From Patescibacteria group bacterium (GTDB taxonomy: Bacteria; Patescibacteria; Microgenomatia; Levybacterales; UBA12049), in contig JAMCTK010000075.1 in assembly GCA_023381035.1 (NCBI GenBank), forward strand, positions 1-5,225: 5,225 nt of DNA. Direction: 5' to 3'. Shown piece after piece: positions 1 through 4,970 of this stretch. How positions within the stretch are numbered: position 1 is the stretch's first letter; each line of letters begins with the position of its first letter. The notes beneath the pieces are model-generated. The model was not told the origin of the DNA. It searched no databases and was given only the letters and a program-made list of their open reading frames with translations. The translations under genes were made by a program, and so were the position numbers.

Positions 1-179
1 CTGAGTTATCCAAAAGAGTTAACCCTGTTGTCCAAGCATTTCCACCAGATTTATATTGTAGATTTAATGCTCCTGTTTCTGGTCTGATGGTATCAACGGT
101 TAATGTTCCTGAGATTGTGGCATTACCTATTACTGCAAACTTCTCAAGAGGAGAGGTTGTCCCAATACCAACATTACCG
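1..179 (-). repeat. Stalk cassette A, copy 2 (EKFAV...LLDNS), cut by left edge
   Basis: The cassette encodes GIGTTSPLEKFAVIGN, then ATISGTLTVDTIRPETGALN and LQYKSGGNAWTTGLTLLDNS (residues about 1427-1485). It matches 1417-1595 at a constant offset of 1,416 bases. By hand count 20 of 179 bases differ, and 18 of these are synonymous; the two replacements are I/T and R/K. The last visible base fits the first base of a Gly codon, so a seventh GNVGIGTT motif probably begins at the window edge. Confidence 0.9.
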
Positions 180-3100
180 CTGTTTGAAAGTATCCTCATT
201 TTTTCACTAGCAGAACCATATGCAGTATAAAAAATAAGATCGAGTTGATTAGTGCCTGAACCATTTGTTCTACCTTCTATTCCAGCATAGGCAGTAGGAT
301 AGGTAGGACTATAAAACTTAAGTATTCCTTGAGATGTATTAGTTGTGTTTGTATTGGAAAGTCCAATATCTCCAACAGAAATATGTAGTTTATCGCTTGG
401 ACTCGTTGTTCCAATCCCCACATTTCCTGTATTAATCCAGGAATCACCATTAGCGGTTCCTGTGAATTTGACTAAAGCAGAAGCAGTAGCACTTCCTCCT
501 AATAACAGGTCAGCATTTGTATTAATAGGGGATAAAGCTCCTGCTAGCTCTTGCCAATATCGATCAGCTGTTCCAGTTGAGCAGGATCCCCAAGCAGGAG
601 CAGCTCCTCCTAGTAAACATTGAGAAGCTGTTCCTGCTGCTGTTTGATAAAGAGAACCAGAGGAATTACCATACATAACTCCTCCAGCTGCGTTATACAG
701 GGGGATAGTTAATCTACCGTTATTTGCAATACTAAACTTATTTACTCCACTTGCTGAAGCAGTAAAGATATCTTGTGATTCAGTTTGATTGAGAATCATT
801 AGGGCTTTTCCAAAGGTAGAGGAGTTTGTAAAGTATGAACCACCAATATTAGCCGGAGCTATGTTTGTTCCTGCAATAAATTGTCCGGATACTGTTGCAG
901 CGTAGTTTGTAACAAAAGCTTCAGAGTCAACAATCACATTTCCCTTGTTAAATGTTCTTAGGGTAAGATCAGACGAATTAAAAGTTTCCCCTGCTTCCAG
1001 GTAAAGCGGGGCAGAGGACTTGATGTAGGAAGCAGATGGGTTTGTGAATAGAAGATCATAAGCCATAGAAACATCTCCTGCTGAAGTAAAGGTAGTTGGA
1101 AGATTAAATGTGGCTGCAGTTTGAGAAACTGAAAAGACAGGAGAACCATTGTCTTTAACATTGAAAATATTTCCGATTGTTCCAAGTGAGCCAATATCAA
1201 GAGAAAGCAAATCTCCCGTTGCTGTGGTTGCTGATCCTGGATTCCAGTAAAGACCCATTAAATTTCCGGTTGTTAAACCAGTTGATGTGGAGGAAAGATA
1301 CAAACCTTGTCCTGTGGTAAGGGAATTAGCAGTAAGATTCATGCCGTTTGTCGTTGATGCTCCTGTAACTAAATCTAAAGAAGCAGTTGGTGCAGTTGTC
1401 CCAATTCCCACATTGCCTGAGTTATCCAAAAGAGTTAATCCCGTTGTCCAAGCATTCCCCCCTGATTTGTATTGTAGATTTAGTGCTCCAGTTTCCGGTT
1501 TGATTGTGTCTACTGTTAAAGTTCCTGAAATTGTGGCATTACCTGTTACTGCAAACTTCTCAAGAGGAGAGGTTGTCCCAATTCCCACATTCCCGGTATT
1601 GATCCACGAGTTGTTTCCTGATGTACCACTAAGCTTAATCAAAGCAGAGGAGGTAGCAGATGCACCAAGAAGTACATCATCAGTAATATTTCTTGGAGAT
1701 AAAGCTCCTAATACTCTCTGCCATTCATTGCTTGCAACAGTAGTACCAATAAGGTTGTCTACATATAGATTAGCCCAATGTCTTGTTGCAGATCCTAGAT
1801 CATAGGTAGCATTAGCATTAGGGTTAAAGGTTCCTGCCATTGTTGCAATTAACCCTGTTGGAGCAAAAGACAGATAACCCATCTGATCTGTCTTAAGATC
1901 AGCATATTTAGCAGGATCTGAGGACAACCTTAACTGAGTTCCTCCTGCTGCTGATAAAACATCTAGTTTTTGAGCAGGGGAGGTGGTGCCAATGCCAACA
2001 TTTCCGCCATTTAGTACGGTCATTAAAGGAGAGTTAGAGGTATCCACAATTTTAAAACCATAGCTCGCACCTGAAGATTTAATAGTGGTAAAATCATCAG
2101 TTGCTACTCCGAGTAGTCCAGCTATAACACTGTCTGATCTTTTTCCTGAATAAAAATATCCATTGTCAATTCCTACTGATCCTCCAGATATATAAAACTT
2201 GCTCCCTGGTGCAGTTGTCCCTATTCCAACATTTCCAGTATTAATCCACGAGTTATTTCCCGAGGTCCCTGTCAGCTTGATCAAGGCTGATGCTGTGCTA
2301 GTTGCACCTAGTAAGACATCGTCTGTTGTATTTACAGGACTAATTGCATTTGAAGCTCTTTGCCAATATCCTTGGACTCCCGTAGAAGCTCCTACAATAT
2401 TGTTTACATACAAGTTATTCCAGTATTTTGAGGAAGAACCTAGATCATAGGTGCTAGTTGCTAAAGGAATTACGCTACCTGAAGTAATAGTGCCAGAATT
2501 ATCTACGGTAAATTTAGCAACTCCGCTAGCAGAAGCGCTAATTAAAGGACCCGATCCGGTTTGGTTAATTGTAAAAGCAGATTGTCCGCTTGATGAAGCT
2601 AGAACCGATAGTAGATCATCAACCTCTACTGATCCTGCAGCTGTGGTTATATTGTTGTTTAAAGTGTTGTTGACCAGAGGCTTTTGTATTTCTATTTTTC
2701 CTAAGCCATCAGGATTCATAACTATATTCGTATTGCTGCCTGTTGCTGTAGTTAAGTTTAAAATTCTTCCGGAAAGAGTAAATTGTCCGCCGGTTGCAGC
2801 AAATGTTGGAGTAGCACTTCCGCCGATACTAAGATTACCGCTTGAATCTAAAGCTAAAACAACATTGCTGGTACCTGCTCCTCCTGCTGTAATTGGTACG
2901 AGTCCTTGTAATGATTCTGAGTTAGCAGCAAAAGCAACAGTTGCTAATTGTTGACGCGGGGTAAGTTCATCAGTTTGTTGAACAGTTACACCAAGCCATA
3001 AAGCGCTGTTTTGGAATAGGTCTGCCGGGAAAGGAATGTTGTTTCCAAGTAAAACAGAAAAAATTCCGTCTTCATCAGGTGAAACTGTTTGAATTTCCTG

Positions 3101-4456
3101 CCAGAGTAGGGCAGCGCCCGATGCTGTTAAGTCGTCATATATGGCAAAACGCAGAGGAGTTGCAGTAGCTATTGGAACGTCATTGCTATTTGTTAGTCTT
3201 CCCTGAAAAGACATTATTCTGGGTGGAGCAGTTGGCAGTGCTGCTAATGCTTTCTTATCCATTTGAGGTTTGATAACAAAGGCATTATAGAAGCTGAAAC
3301 TAAGTGCAGAAATGAAAATGATTAAGATAGCAAAATGAAAATAGTGAGTGATTGAGTATGAATGATACCTTTTGTACCAGTCTGGACGTGTATATCTCGT
3401 GTGAAAAATGACTTTTCTGTACCAAGGGAAGTATTTGGTGGAGATACTTAGCGGATTATAGAACGATTTGCTAAGATTTTTTACACTTATTTCATCAACA
3501 TAGGACTGTTGGCTAGTAGCTGTTTTACGAATCTTATCTTGTAGGTTGTAAAAGACTTCTTTGCCTCCGGACTTCCAAAGGAGAAGTTGTCCATGTTTTA
3601 GCAATTCGACAATTGGAGTGATAAGAATAGCTTCGAATAAAGCATTTAACCCCTTTCCGCTTTTTTGAGCTAGCCTAACTGGAGGAAAGGGAGAATAGGA
3701 ACTAGCTTCCTCAGCGGTCGCAGGGAGTTGAGTATCAGCTATTTGCAGGGATTCAAGACCTCGGTTGTTAGAAGGAGAAAGTGTTTTAAGATTAGATATT
3801 TGCTCATAAGCAGATGGTTTAATGGTTGAAATTAACCCTTCTTGCTGAGCCCAAGTTAGATATTTCCTCAAAGATGAGAGTTTTCTATTAACTGTAAGAG
3901 GCGAGAATCCTTGGTCGACAAGCCTGTTTTTGTATTCTTGAATAACATTGTTATTGAGCTTGGTAAAGACATTCTTGTCTTCTACCTGCCAGGCATCTTT
4001 AGCTCCGGTCACTTCTTGTGCCCAGTCAAAAAACTGCTTAATATCAATTACGTAGTTTTTGATTGTTAGCTTCGAAGCATTATATACATAGAGGAAATTC
4101 TTAAAGTCTCTAATCTTAAACGGATCATCCTGTGCTAAGACTTCAGCGGATTGAGCTTGTTGTTCGAACGGGGAGTGGGATATATGTCCTTCAAGTTTTA
4201 AAAACAAAAAGAACTTTCTAAGAGAGGACAGATGTCTTTCAAAAGATCTCGGAGCAATTCCAAGAGAGATTTTATCTTTTTTGTAGGCAGATAATATTTG
4301 GTTTGAAATTGCGGTTGGATCAAATTCTCTCTGAAACTTCTCACTATACCAACGAATGAATTGACTTACGTCAGCTTTATAGTTTTTAACCGTAACTCTA
4401 GACGGAAGTTTTTTTTGAGATAAAAGATATTGGATAAATTCGTTAATTAAATTCAT
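1..4456 (-). CDS. Giant surface fibre protein: tandem recombinase-like SAM domains, one TM helix, GIGTT-repeat stalk (C-terminus off window)
   Basis: An uninterrupted frame of 1,485 codons starts at ATG 4456; an in-frame TAA lies 12 bases upstream (4466-4468), the next Met is residue 399, and the first domain begins at once, so this start is the best choice. Residues 1-95 and 105-210 each follow the tyrosine-recombinase core-binding pattern (LTIKNYVIDIKQF, then NRKLSSLRKYLTWAQQEG). No catalytic domain with an R...HxxR...Y signature follows. A Pro/Ser-rich linker (about 211-255) and a basic stretch (347-363, rich in R and K) precede a helix at about 373-395 (HFAILIIFISALSFSF), which predicts N-in topology. 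Residues 413-518 form a FQGRLT...WQE...GIFSVLLG...LTPRQ domain common at the base of CPR fibre proteins. The rest is a Ser/Thr/Gly/Asn stalk with GIGTT at 744-748, 821-825, 958-962, 1017-1021, 1347-1351 and 1430-1434. There is no good ribosome site: AGGTG lies 17 nt away and the leader is A-rich. The surface-fibre role is inferred; whether the head binds DNA is unknown. The C-terminus, possibly an S74-type chaperone, is not visible. Confidence 0.93.
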   Translation of the reverse strand, partial: MNLINEFIQYLLSQKKLPSRVTVKNYKADVSQFIRWYSEKFQREFDPTAISNQILSAYKKDKISLGIAPRSFERHLSSLRKFFLFLKLEGHISHSPFEQQAQSAEVLAQDDPFKIRDFKNFLYVYNASKLTIKNYVIDIKQFFDWAQEVTGAKDAWQVEDKNVFTKLNNNVIQEYKNRLVDQGFSPLTVNRKLSSLRKYLTWAQQEGLISTIKPSAYEQISNLKTLSPSNNRGLESLQIADTQLPATAEEASSYSPFPPVRLAQKSGKGLNALFEAILITPIVELLKHGQLLLWKSGGKEVFYNLQDKIRKTATSQQSYVDEISVKNLSKSFYNPLSISTKYFPWYRKVIFHTRYTRPDWYKRYHSYSITHYFHFAILIIFISALSFSFYNAFVIKPQMDKKALAALPTAPPRIMSFQGRLTNSNDVPIATATPLRFAIYDDLTASGAALLWQEIQTVSPDEDGIFSVLLGNNIPFPADLFQNSALWLGVTVQQTDELTPRQQLATVAFAANSESLQGLVPITAGGAGTSNVVLALDSSGNLSIGGSATPTFAATGGQFTLSGRILNLTTATGSNTNIVMNPDGLGKIEIQKPLVNNTLNNNITTAAGSVEVDDLLSVLASSSGQSAFTINQTGSGPLISASASGVAKFTVDNSGTITSGSVIPLATSTYDLGSSSKYWNNLYVNNIVGASTGVQGYWQRASNAISPVNTTDDVLLGATSTASALIKLTGTSGNNSWINTGNVGIGTTAPGSKFYISGGSVGIDNGYFYSGKRSDSVIAGLLGVATDDFTTIKSSGASYGFKIVDTSNSPLMTVLNGGNVGIGTTSPAQKLDVLSAAGGTQLRLSSDPAKYADLKTDQMGYLSFAPTGLIATMAGTFNPNANATYDLGSATRHWANLYVDNLIGTTVASNEWQRVLGALSPRNITDDVLLGASATSSALIKLSGTSGNNSWINTGNVGIGTTSPLEKFAVTGNATISGTLTVDTIKPETGALNLQYKSGGNAWTTGLTLLDNSGNVGIGTTAPTASLDLVTGASTTNGMNLTANSLTTGQGLYLSSTSTGLTTGNLMGLYWNPGSATTATGDLLSLDIGSLGTIGNIFNVKDNGSPVFSVSQTAATFNLPTTFTSAGDVSMAYDLLFTNPSASYIKSSAPLYLEAGETFNSSDLTLRTFNKGNVIVDSEAFVTNYAATVSGQFIAGTNIAPANIGGSYFTNSSTFGKALMILNQTESQDIFTASASGVNKFSIANNGRLTIPLYNAAGGVMYGNSSGSLYQTAAGTASQCLLGGAAPAWGSCSTGTADRYWQELAGALSPINTNADLLLGGSATASALVKFTGTANGDSWINTGNVGIGTTSPSDKLHISVGDIGLSNTNTTNTSQGILKFYSPTYPTAYAGIEGRTNGSGTNQLDLIFYTAYGSASEKMRILSNSGNVGIGTTSPLEKFAVIGNATISGTLTVDTIRPETGALNLQYKSGGNAWTTGLTLLDNS
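398..568 (-). repeat. Stalk cassette B, copy 3 (second half only)
   Basis: Residues 1297-1353 read RYWQELAGALSPINTNADLL, then SALVKFTGTANGDSWINTGN and VGIGTTSP. The YDLGS half of the cassette is absent; in its place is a Cys-containing QCLLGGAAPAWGSC segment. This suggests the cassette is made of separately shuffled halves. Confidence 0.8.
716..796 (-). repeat. Stalk cassette C, copy 2
   Basis: Residues 1221-1247 (ILNQTESQDIFTASASGV, then NKFSIANNG) are the partner of 2492-2572. The order cassette C then cassette B is kept in both places, with different spacing between them. Confidence 0.75.
1417..1595 (-). repeat. Stalk cassette A, copy 1
   Basis: This is the partner of the block at 1-179, in the same orientation and reading frame (residues about 955-1013 of the large protein). 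It encodes GIGTTSPLEKFAVTGN through GLTLLDNSGNVGIGTTAP. Short stretches are identical in both copies, for example the bases around 1546-1582, while third positions elsewhere differ. That is typical of duplicated surface-protein cassettes. Confidence 0.9.
1565..1804 (-). repeat. Stalk cassette B, copy 2
   Basis: Residues 885-964 read YDLGSATRHWANLYVDNLIG, then EWQRVLGALSPRNITDDVLL and SGNNSWINTGNVGIGTTSP. It aligns along its full length with 2207-2449 and runs straight into cassette A copy 1, which shares its GNVGIGTTSP end. Confidence 0.85.
2207..2449 (-). repeat. Stalk cassette B, copy 1 (YDLGS...NLYV...WINTGNVGIGTT)
   Basis: Residues 670-750 read YDLGSSSKYWNNLYVNNIVG, then YWQRASNAISPVNTTDDVLL and SGNNSWINTGNVGIGTTAP. 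The YDLGS....W.NLYV motif is common in phage tail-fibre-like and CPR fibre proteins. The cassette recurs at 1565-1804, and its second half recurs at 398-568. Confidence 0.85.
2492..2572 (-). repeat. Stalk cassette C, copy 1 (NQT...SASASGV.KF)
   Basis: Residues 629-655 (TINQTGSGPLISASASGV, then AKFTVDNSG) match residues 1221-1247 encoded at 716-796. The pattern is NQT.S...(I/F)(S/T)ASASGV.KF(T/S)(V/I).N.G. It is a short beta-rich unit placed before a cassette B copy in both places. Confidence 0.75.
3272..3417 (-). other. Basic stop/anchor segment and single transmembrane helix
   Basis: This is a subregion of the large gene (residues about 347-395). A run of basic and aromatic residues (RKVIFHTRYTRPDWYKRYH) leads into an uncharged stretch from H374 to I395 containing FAILIIFISALSFSFYNAFV. 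By the positive-inside rule the N-terminal head stays in the cytoplasm and everything after residue 396 is exported. The helix sits directly before the FQGRLT domain, where other proteins of this kind carry an N-terminal signal peptide, so it probably acts as an uncleaved signal anchor. Cleavage near ALAALPTA (about 403-410) cannot be excluded. Confidence 0.8.
3842..4456 (-). other. Cytoplasmic head: two tandem tyrosine-recombinase core-binding (SAM-like) domains
   Basis: This is a subregion of the large gene (residues about 1-205). Copy 1 contains FIQYLLSQKKLPSRVTVKNY, then DVSQFIRWY, and ends with RSFERHLSSLRKFFLFLKLE. Copy 2 contains FKNFLYVYNASKLTIKNY, then DIKQFFDWA, and ends with VNRKLSSLRKYLTWAQQEG. 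Both match the XerC/XerD N-terminal pattern: a short helix, a T..NY..D...F..W helix, and a terminal R.LSSLRKF...L..EG helix. In true recombinases this domain clamps DNA and is followed by a catalytic domain of about 180 residues; here it is duplicated and followed by a linker and a membrane helix. The similarity is visible in the sequence; DNA binding is inference, and the domains could equally serve protein contact. Confidence 0.75.
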
Positions 4457-4631: not shown

Positions 4632-4970
4632 CTATGTCTTTCCATGCGTTTTTGCTGCCTGATTTGCGCTTAGGTATTCCCGAAGAGAAATAGTTGGGAA
4701 AGGGAGCTTAGCTTCAAGATTATACGGATTATATACATTATCACCCAGATTAGTAATAAAAATAAATTCACTCATACAATTAGAATAAATAAGTATACAG
4801 CATGTTGTCAAGACCCTAGAGTAATTAAAAAGGATACATTTATTTATAGTTAGATATAGAAGGGAAATACGCAAAAAACCCGAATGGACGGAGTATGGAG
4901 GGTTATTTTTGTTTAACTGTCGGGAATTCGTATTTTTTACATGCTTAGTGACCACATCAAAACGCATCAT
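4632..4970 (-). CDS. Doubtful 112-codon frame, no recognised product
   Basis: This frame lies upstream of the large gene on the same strand, with two adjacent ATG codons at 4965-4970 and a TAG at 4632-4634. The first 65 residues are rich in N, Y, S, L and I, as expected from translated AT-rich noncoding DNA, and show no domain. From an internal Met at 4775 the last 47 residues (MSEFIFITNLGDNVYNPY, then LEAKLPFPTISLREYLSANQ) look more protein-like, and a good promoter lies just upstream of that Met. No convincing ribosome site precedes either start. I do not recognise it; it may not be a gene. Confidence 0.18.
   Translation of the reverse strand: MMRFDVVTKHVKNTNSRQLNKNNPPYSVHSGFLRISLLYLTINKCILFNYSRVLTTCCILIYSNCMSEFIFITNLGDNVYNPYNLEAKLPFPTISLREYLSANQAAKTHGKT
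4782..4811 (-). promoter_or_regulatory. Sigma70-like promoter candidate directed toward the large gene
   Basis: On the minus strand a perfect TTGACA (4806-4811) is followed 18 bp later by TATTCT (4782-4787). The expected transcription start is near 4775, about 320 bases before the large gene's ATG. That would give a long leader containing the hairpin at 4477-4513. The start also coincides with an ATG at 4773-4775 that opens a 47-codon frame ending at 4632, so a leaderless short message is an alternative reading. Confidence 0.45.
4873..4910 (-). terminator. Weak terminator-like hairpin
   Basis: On the minus strand AACCC (4900-4904) can pair with GGGTT (4877-4881), followed by a run of T ending at 4873. 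The stem has only three G-C pairs and the loop is about 18 bases, although CCG/CGG pairing inside the loop could shorten it. It could end a minus-strand transcript entering from the right edge, which would fit the alternative reading of the right end. Confidence 0.2.

Follow-up and report, generated by a model that had tools for sequence, protein, structure and literature searches.

The window analysed here, i.e. the whole 5,225-nucleotide (nt) stretch of contig JAMCTK010000075.1 from a Patescibacteria group bacterium (assembly GCA_023381035.1), carries one long open reading frame (ORF) on the (-) strand (4456..2; 1485 amino acids (aa), open at the window end). Its product joins two core-binding domains of the tyrosine recombinase type to a single transmembrane (TM) helix and a long repetitive fibre, and this fusion of head, TM helix and fibre is a conserved family, not a one-off. 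Tentatively, and with somewhat less than an even chance, we read it as a DNA-binding head, anchored in the membrane, that carries an exported and probably trimeric fibre; the likeliest target of the head would be a direct-repeat element at its own promoter, where it would feed back on its own expression.

The initial annotation had described two recombinase core-binding domains without a catalytic domain, one TM helix and a fibre, and a Pfam scan, hydropathy, a structure model and an alignment of relatives all bear this description out. The parts of the protein are the following:

4187..4447, (-) strand: SAM1, first tyrosine-recombinase core-binding (SAM-like) domain, residues 4-90
3851..4105, (-) strand: SAM2, second core-binding domain, residues 118-202
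3551..3697, (-) strand: conserved segment YSxFPPxRLxQK with a long helix, residues 254-302 (family alignment; helix 258-296 in the structure model)
3344..3439, (-) strand: juxtamembrane segment with RPxWYKxYHSY, residues 340-371 (conservation in relatives)
3284..3343, (-) strand: single TM helix, residues 372-391 (hydropathy; helix 368-395 in the model)
2867..3229, (-) strand: first fibre domain (SFQGRLT...), resembling the N-domain of mosaic adhesive trimers (MAT), residues 410-530 (sub-cut-off NF053851 match)
2..2866, (-) strand: repetitive fibre of GNVGIGTT-type modules, running past the window end

Residues 1-210 consist of the two SAM-like domains (PF02899, E 3.8e-20; PF13495, E 5.2e-8), which have the computed fold of a recombinase core-binding domain and align with each other at 35% across 83 residues (E 4e-14, computed for this one pair). 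The XerC model matches the protein N-terminally, with its best stretch at model positions 2-93 of 295, and the catalytic recombinase family (PF00589; R-H-R-H-Y) was found neither in the Pfam scan of the window protein nor among the precomputed domains of the 120 relatives listed by the search described below. SAM2 is followed by a variable linker, the conserved helical segment, the juxtamembrane segment, one hydrophobic helix and the fibre. Hydropathy and the model predict this one TM helix, and by the positive-inside rule the N-terminus should lie inside the cell and the fibre outside. The start of the fibre (residues 409-472) resembles NF053851 Bdello_MAT_N below threshold (22.7 bits, cut-off 60), as it does in two of six relatives scanned (28.8 and 28.4 bits, both below the cut-off of 60), and residues 1203-1450 match the tail fibre family phrog_18345 (E 5.6e-9). 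An S74/Peptidase_G2 domain was not found in the window protein, whose C-terminal part lies past the window end; four of the six relatives scanned have an S74/G2-type domain near residues 795-930 of about 1350-1500, i.e. in mid-protein. A manual count over the 120 listed relatives, a number of whose rows are truncated, gives 45 with PF11962 and 10 with PF13884.

A protein search with the head gave 333 relatives at E<=1e-3, of which 120 were listed, with 83-100% of the head query covered; most are named Candidatus Levybacteria/Levyibacteriota or Patescibacteria, and one is named Sulfotelmatobacter. Models built from the alignment of these relatives detect the juxtamembrane segment, the fibre start and two or more SAM domains in every one of the 120. 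A hydrophobic segment is present at the anchor in 113, and it is the only one within the first 600 residues in 91. The initial annotation had proposed a search for the same fusion in other Microgenomates genomes. A scan of a genome collection kept 80 of 332 loci, and L001-L026 have the head (L020 and L026 in part), with one strong match in each of these 26 genomes; L027-L080 are core-binding matches in other phyla, which we take to be ordinary recombinases. Further, weaker matches occur in 25 of the 26 genomes, nearly all as separate ORFs of about 286-350 aa, 19 of which resemble full-length Xer-like recombinases by eye. In a phylum-wide draw, 22 of 379 genomes gave a match at 1e-13, part of these being Xer-sized ORFs, and 19 of the 22 were already in the draw of the class, which is presumably Microgenomatia.

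The anchor is conserved as well. P358, W360, Y361 and Y364 of the juxtamembrane segment are identical in 120/120 listed relatives, and 21 of 25 genomes have the segment at the head gene (E<=1e-9). That it serves as a general export signal was rejected, as the motif is mostly confined to the head gene; extra matches are weak in G006, G008 and G058, and a strong one in G024 is itself a member of the query alignment. A 296-aa, probably exported, different protein (L179:974-1864 (+)) opens with RPxWYKKYH and a TM helix without SAM domains. Other variants of the layout are a relative of 397 aa whose ORF (L123:4031-5224 (+)) encodes two SAM domains and a TM helix but no fibre, and a head with a single SAM domain, TM helix and fibre start that forms the beginning of an open frame of a reported 24,949 aa (L139, G265:C14). 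In the Protein Data Bank (PDB), the N-terminal stretch of a 401-aa chain named RaiA in the sequence file (9i5v chain 14) resembles SAM1. A viral or phage origin was considered and rejected: a scan of viral contigs matched seven loci, weakly (E 4e-8 to 1e-4) and within residues 1-213, and none of the seven has a full head. No description of a recombinase-domain head joined to a TM helix and a fibre was found in the titles and abstract starts of the open-licence PMC papers that the literature searches listed.

An important question is whether the head still reads DNA. In the Cre and Xer structures the conserved positions of the SAM motif presumably lie on helices that enter the major groove and face the DNA. 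In the listed relatives, T22, K24, N25, Y26, D29 and R74 of SAM1 as well as K133, N134, Y135, D138, N190, R191, K192 and R197 of SAM2 are identical in at least 115 of the 117-120 rows that have a letter there, and both domains are basic, with isoelectric points of 9.7 and 9.3. For XerH, the excerpted text of PMC5241119 attributes most base-specific contacts to the N-terminal domain. In several relatives with split genes (see below), the motif (TIKNYLSD / TINRRLS) is kept in SAM1 and lost in SAM2, and since SAM1 retains it there, the motif itself seems to be selected and not the fold alone. The earlier suggestion that the head is a potential DNA-binding module thus gains from the near-invariance of the expected contact positions, by which the head could bind DNA, while binding as such stays a prediction. 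In a tree of SAM domains, those of the resident Xer proteins form clades separate from the heads. The two domains of L133 (6588-7562 (+)) group together with support of 100/97 and those of L137 (1-683 (-)) with weaker support of 100/66, a pattern that a renewed duplication of the tandem would leave. SAM1 and SAM2 may or may not go back to a single duplication, the tree having few columns, weak forks and long branches.

A candidate target lies upstream of the gene itself:

4709..4741, (-) strand: conserved direct-repeat element ATAATGTATATAATCCGTATAATCTTGAAGCTA; the fibre ATG follows at a distance of 277 nt from the second TATAAT of the element
4782..4811, (-) strand: sigma-70-like promoter, read by eye: TTGACA (4806-4811), 18 nt, TATTCT (4782-4787)

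A promoter scan of the window selected the same TTGACA, paired instead with TTTATT at a spacing of 16 nt. Of 24 sequences scanned, 22 have an exact TTGACA, and the promoter score alone is often not significant against shuffles. The element, situated 22-55 nt downstream of the sigma-70-like promoter, consists of three 9-bp direct repeats TATAATCNG and is present in 24 of 25 loci and in the window, with L007 starting too near the contig end. Among 8-mers shared upstream of the head gene in Levybacteria, GTATAATC occurs in 13 and TTTTCACA in 15 of 20 loci (maximum 8 in 30 shuffles). The pattern TATAATNNGTATAATNT was sought in 20 of the 26 genomes (G007, G013, G019, G020, G025 and G026 being left out); all 20 carry it 5' of the head gene at a distance of up to about 720 nt, and the reversed control gave two matches. 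It occurs once per genome in 18 of the 20, with two overlapping sites in G024 and one extra site elsewhere in G008. G013 and G019 showed no motif in the stretch inspected first; it was later found in both, in G013 with one pattern-breaking change and in G019 on the opposite strand. In L019 the element lies in reverse orientation about 445 nt upstream of the head gene (L019:9555, - strand), an arrangement that would suit a DNA site.

The concentration of the element at the head gene extends beyond these genomes. In 137 genomes of the class, four of them shared with the 20-genome search, TATAATNNGTATAATNT gave 28 matches (control 7), 16 of which lie at a head gene, in 15 genomes, and 12 elsewhere. 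With a matrix trained on 24 sequences, each held-out locus being compared with up to 100 of its own windows, 26 of 40 reached significance (p<=0.02) where about one is expected, i.e. 7 of 17 with unsplit and 19 of 23 with split genes. In 1.52 Mb searched on both strands, 45 of the 50 sites scoring above zero are at the 5' end of a head gene; 23 are training loci and one of the 45 (that of L019) is reversed. By eye, L121 and L149 have an element-like sequence, and in L120 the element is further upstream. We favour a DNA site, because conservation of the repeat is equal at the three codon positions (1.59/1.57/1.62 bits), the repeat frame has no ATG/GTG/TTG start in 8 of 24 leaders and no RNA structure was predicted in the leader; Rfam gave no RNA family match in 13 sources. 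The element is our candidate target, and its direct repeats would suit a tandem head, which makes them its natural, if putative, site.

Elsewhere in the class, a break within SAM2 divides the homologous gene into two ORFs. The first (140-195 aa) encodes SAM1 together with the front half of SAM2; the second starts at or near the second half of SAM2 and runs on into TM helix and fibre; among 23 split loci examined (L134-L136, L140-L159), the start of the second ORF has a SAM match in 17. The ORFs overlap in 5 of 22 loci measured, are 2 or 8 nt apart in two, are separated by 71-400 nt in 14 and by 1041 nt in L134. By eye, the gap contains a short ORF (about 45-60 aa) whose product includes DP[AS]xx[GS][NS]PY in L151, L153, L154, L155, L157 and L158. 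The gaps of L135, L144 and L149 share the motif ATCTGGGGG, and these loci have no Rfam match. Among the matches listed for the 137 genomes, the best head match is in an ORF of at least 500 aa in 36, of 130-250 aa in 26 and of 270-400 aa in 8, in a manual count that leaves out resident Xer-sized single matches and in which contig ends may shorten ORFs and the weakest matches may be other proteins. The halves may be joined by recoding (a programmed frameshift) or may dock as two separately translated proteins.

Several observations weigh against a DNA-binding head acting at this element. In the head, R80 (109/120) and K81 (108/120) are less constant in the listed relatives, a broader comparison of 23 heads leaves Y26, D29 and R74 as the only invariant motif residues (with N25 at >=90%), and some relatives have lost the SAM2 motif. 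The element is not significant in 14 of the 40 held-out loci with a head, and its score is below zero in 8 of the 26 where it is significant. Of 24 leaders, 11 have an ATG-started frame that crosses the repeat, compared with 5 and 0 for the other frames. Coding sequence contains the repeat in L151-L158, and by eye a small ORF opens with it in L129, L140, L141, L143 and L145-L147, so that a peptide role is conceivable in some lineages. Moreover, the TATAAT of the repeat is also a -10 hexamer, and an E. coli-like dif pattern (up to 3 mismatches), sought for comparison of the element with the Xer site of these organisms, was found in none of 23 genomes.

The strongest alternative, which we nevertheless consider rather unlikely, is that the SAM domains are a protein-protein module, i.e. 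a cytoplasmic plug or adaptor that anchors the fibre or localizes it to a pole or a partner, with DNA binding lost or irrelevant. It would account for relatives of the L151-L158 type, in which SAM2 is still recognizable without its DNA motif, for the break inside SAM2 in many genomes, as if the halves must dock, and for the position of the head gene within a cluster of probable surface genes. It does not explain why the motif residues are near-invariant in both domains of the 120 listed relatives and why SAM1 retains them even where SAM2 does not.

An improbable alternative is a tether, in which the head would keep the chromosome, or a single locus, beneath the fibre at the cell envelope and so serve segregation or polarity in these very small cells. 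The topology proposed above and the DNA-binding fold would serve this, as would one conserved site per genome in 18/20, yet no tie of the site to origin or terminus was found. Known DNA anchors use clustered sites, unlike the single site seen here, and a site at the own promoter fits a local autoregulator or a single-locus tether better than a chromosome-wide one.

Similarly improbable is the possibility that the element is the site of another regulator or a translated leader peptide, and that the head works with resident Xer/FtsK or on another DNA target. The same genomes do contain Xer-like full-length ORFs (by eye), and the repeat reads Y-N-x-Y-N-L/F-x-A, in the ATG-started frame of 11 leaders mentioned above; third codon positions are, however, as conserved as the others, and 8 of 24 leaders lack a start in this frame. 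The clades of the resident Xer domains, apart from the heads, speak against a recent Xer origin and against this point only. Finally, an artefact by which part of a recombinase was fused with a fibre gene, during assembly (the possible head-stalk error that the initial annotation had named) or during annotation, has practically no probability left, as no point in its favour was found and the fusion recurs in 120/120 listed relatives, with one strong match in 26/26 genomes.

A membrane-bound autoregulator would operate as follows. Two core-binding domains, borrowed from a tyrosine recombinase, would stay in the cytoplasm with their DNA-reading face kept, tied by the conserved juxtamembrane segment and TM anchor to a MAT-like adhesive fibre. 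A trimeric fibre, as suggested by its MAT and S74 relatives (PMC10769870), would hold three double heads at the membrane, which could bind the 9-bp direct repeats just downstream of their own gene's promoter. The number or state of fibres, perhaps the host-bound state, might then be sensed and fed back on fibre expression, in a mode of working comparable to that of CadC/ToxR-type membrane regulators.

In a broader form, which we regard as possible but doubtful, this would be a widespread one-chain system of ultrasmall bacteria of the Microgenomatia type, in which the core-binding pair serves as a membrane-bound autoregulator (or locus tether) driven by a host-contacting trimeric fibre, with a near-unique direct-repeat operator and, in many genomes of the class, a head put together from the two halves of a split SAM domain, each encoded separately. 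To our knowledge, ultrasmall bacteria have few classical signalling systems. How uncultured ultrasmall bacteria recognize and respond to their hosts is largely unknown, according to the excerpted text of PMC12206443. If our reading is true, a single-copy, widely conserved protein reaching from surface fibre to DNA, together with its matching site, would provide a direct route from surface contact to gene expression, and the tyrosine-recombinase core-binding domain would have found an unusual second career.

The gene neighbourhood has a recurrent composition. At least one of two recurrent, probably exported protein families is encoded within a few genes upstream in 22 of 26 loci, and in the other four the head gene is near a contig edge. 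In L011, one of these families is weakly similar to NCBIfam Pam pilus proteins (41.7 of 240 and 33.1 of 55 bits) and the other is WxLIP_PGBD-like (25.6 bits, cut-off 27.3). A family of TPR-containing membrane proteins follows the head gene in 9 of 26 loci. Of the 26 loci displayed, 13 have a probable LeuS gene (by eye) upstream on the opposite strand, and in some of them genes of the ComEA and ComEC families, identified as such in L012, lie farther out; in L005, L012, L014, L015, L018, L024 and L025, ComEA-/ComEC-family genes and the probable LeuS gene adjoin the cluster on the opposite strand.

One of the known systems compared is Pam, the pilus of the Candidate Phyla Radiation (CPR). Neighbouring genes resemble PamT and the Pam pilin C-terminal domain (NF058579, NF058581), but the scores of the two L011 neighbours (41.7/240, 24.1/55 and 33.1/55 bits) are far under the cut-offs and too low for membership, and the fibre itself matches no Pam pilus model. 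With the tyrosine recombinases XerC/XerD/XerA, lambda Int and Cre, each head domain shares the N-terminal core-binding fold and sequence family; the window protein differs in its tandem copies, membrane anchor and fibre, and is not a recombinase because the catalytic domain is absent. The MAT fibres of Bdellovibrio, which are trimeric beta-prism fibres, have a signal peptide and a conserved N-domain of ~130 aa, with S74 in 13 of 21 MATs, as stated in the portion of PMC10769870 consulted. The window protein resembles them as a probable surface fibre, in its sub-threshold fibre start and in the S74 domain of some relatives, yet it has a head of about 370 residues and an internal TM helix in place of the N-terminal signal peptide, and the S74/G2 domain of its relatives is internal and not terminal. 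MYRF, a membrane-bound transcription factor with a phage tailspike domain, likewise combines a DNA-binding domain, a TM helix and an S74-type domain (here in some relatives) in one chain, as far as the excerpt of PMC3742443 goes. In the head family, fibre and S74/G2 domain would be outside. The S74 domain of MYRF, by contrast, is on the same side as its DNA-binding domain, which it frees. A parallel in layout is offered by the membrane-integrated one-component regulators CadC and ToxR, which, in the parts of PMC6320335 and PMC5430869 that describe them, have an N-terminal DNA-binding domain inside, one TM helix and a C-terminal part outside, an arrangement that the window protein would share. 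The window protein is not a member of this group, because it has no winged helix (no OmpR-type family match in the Pfam scan); its head consists of helical core-binding domains with a putative regulatory role, and its outer part would be a fibre of >1000 residues in place of a small sensor. Both working parts, i.e. the adhesive fibre and the membrane-tied DNA-binding regulator, have known parallels.

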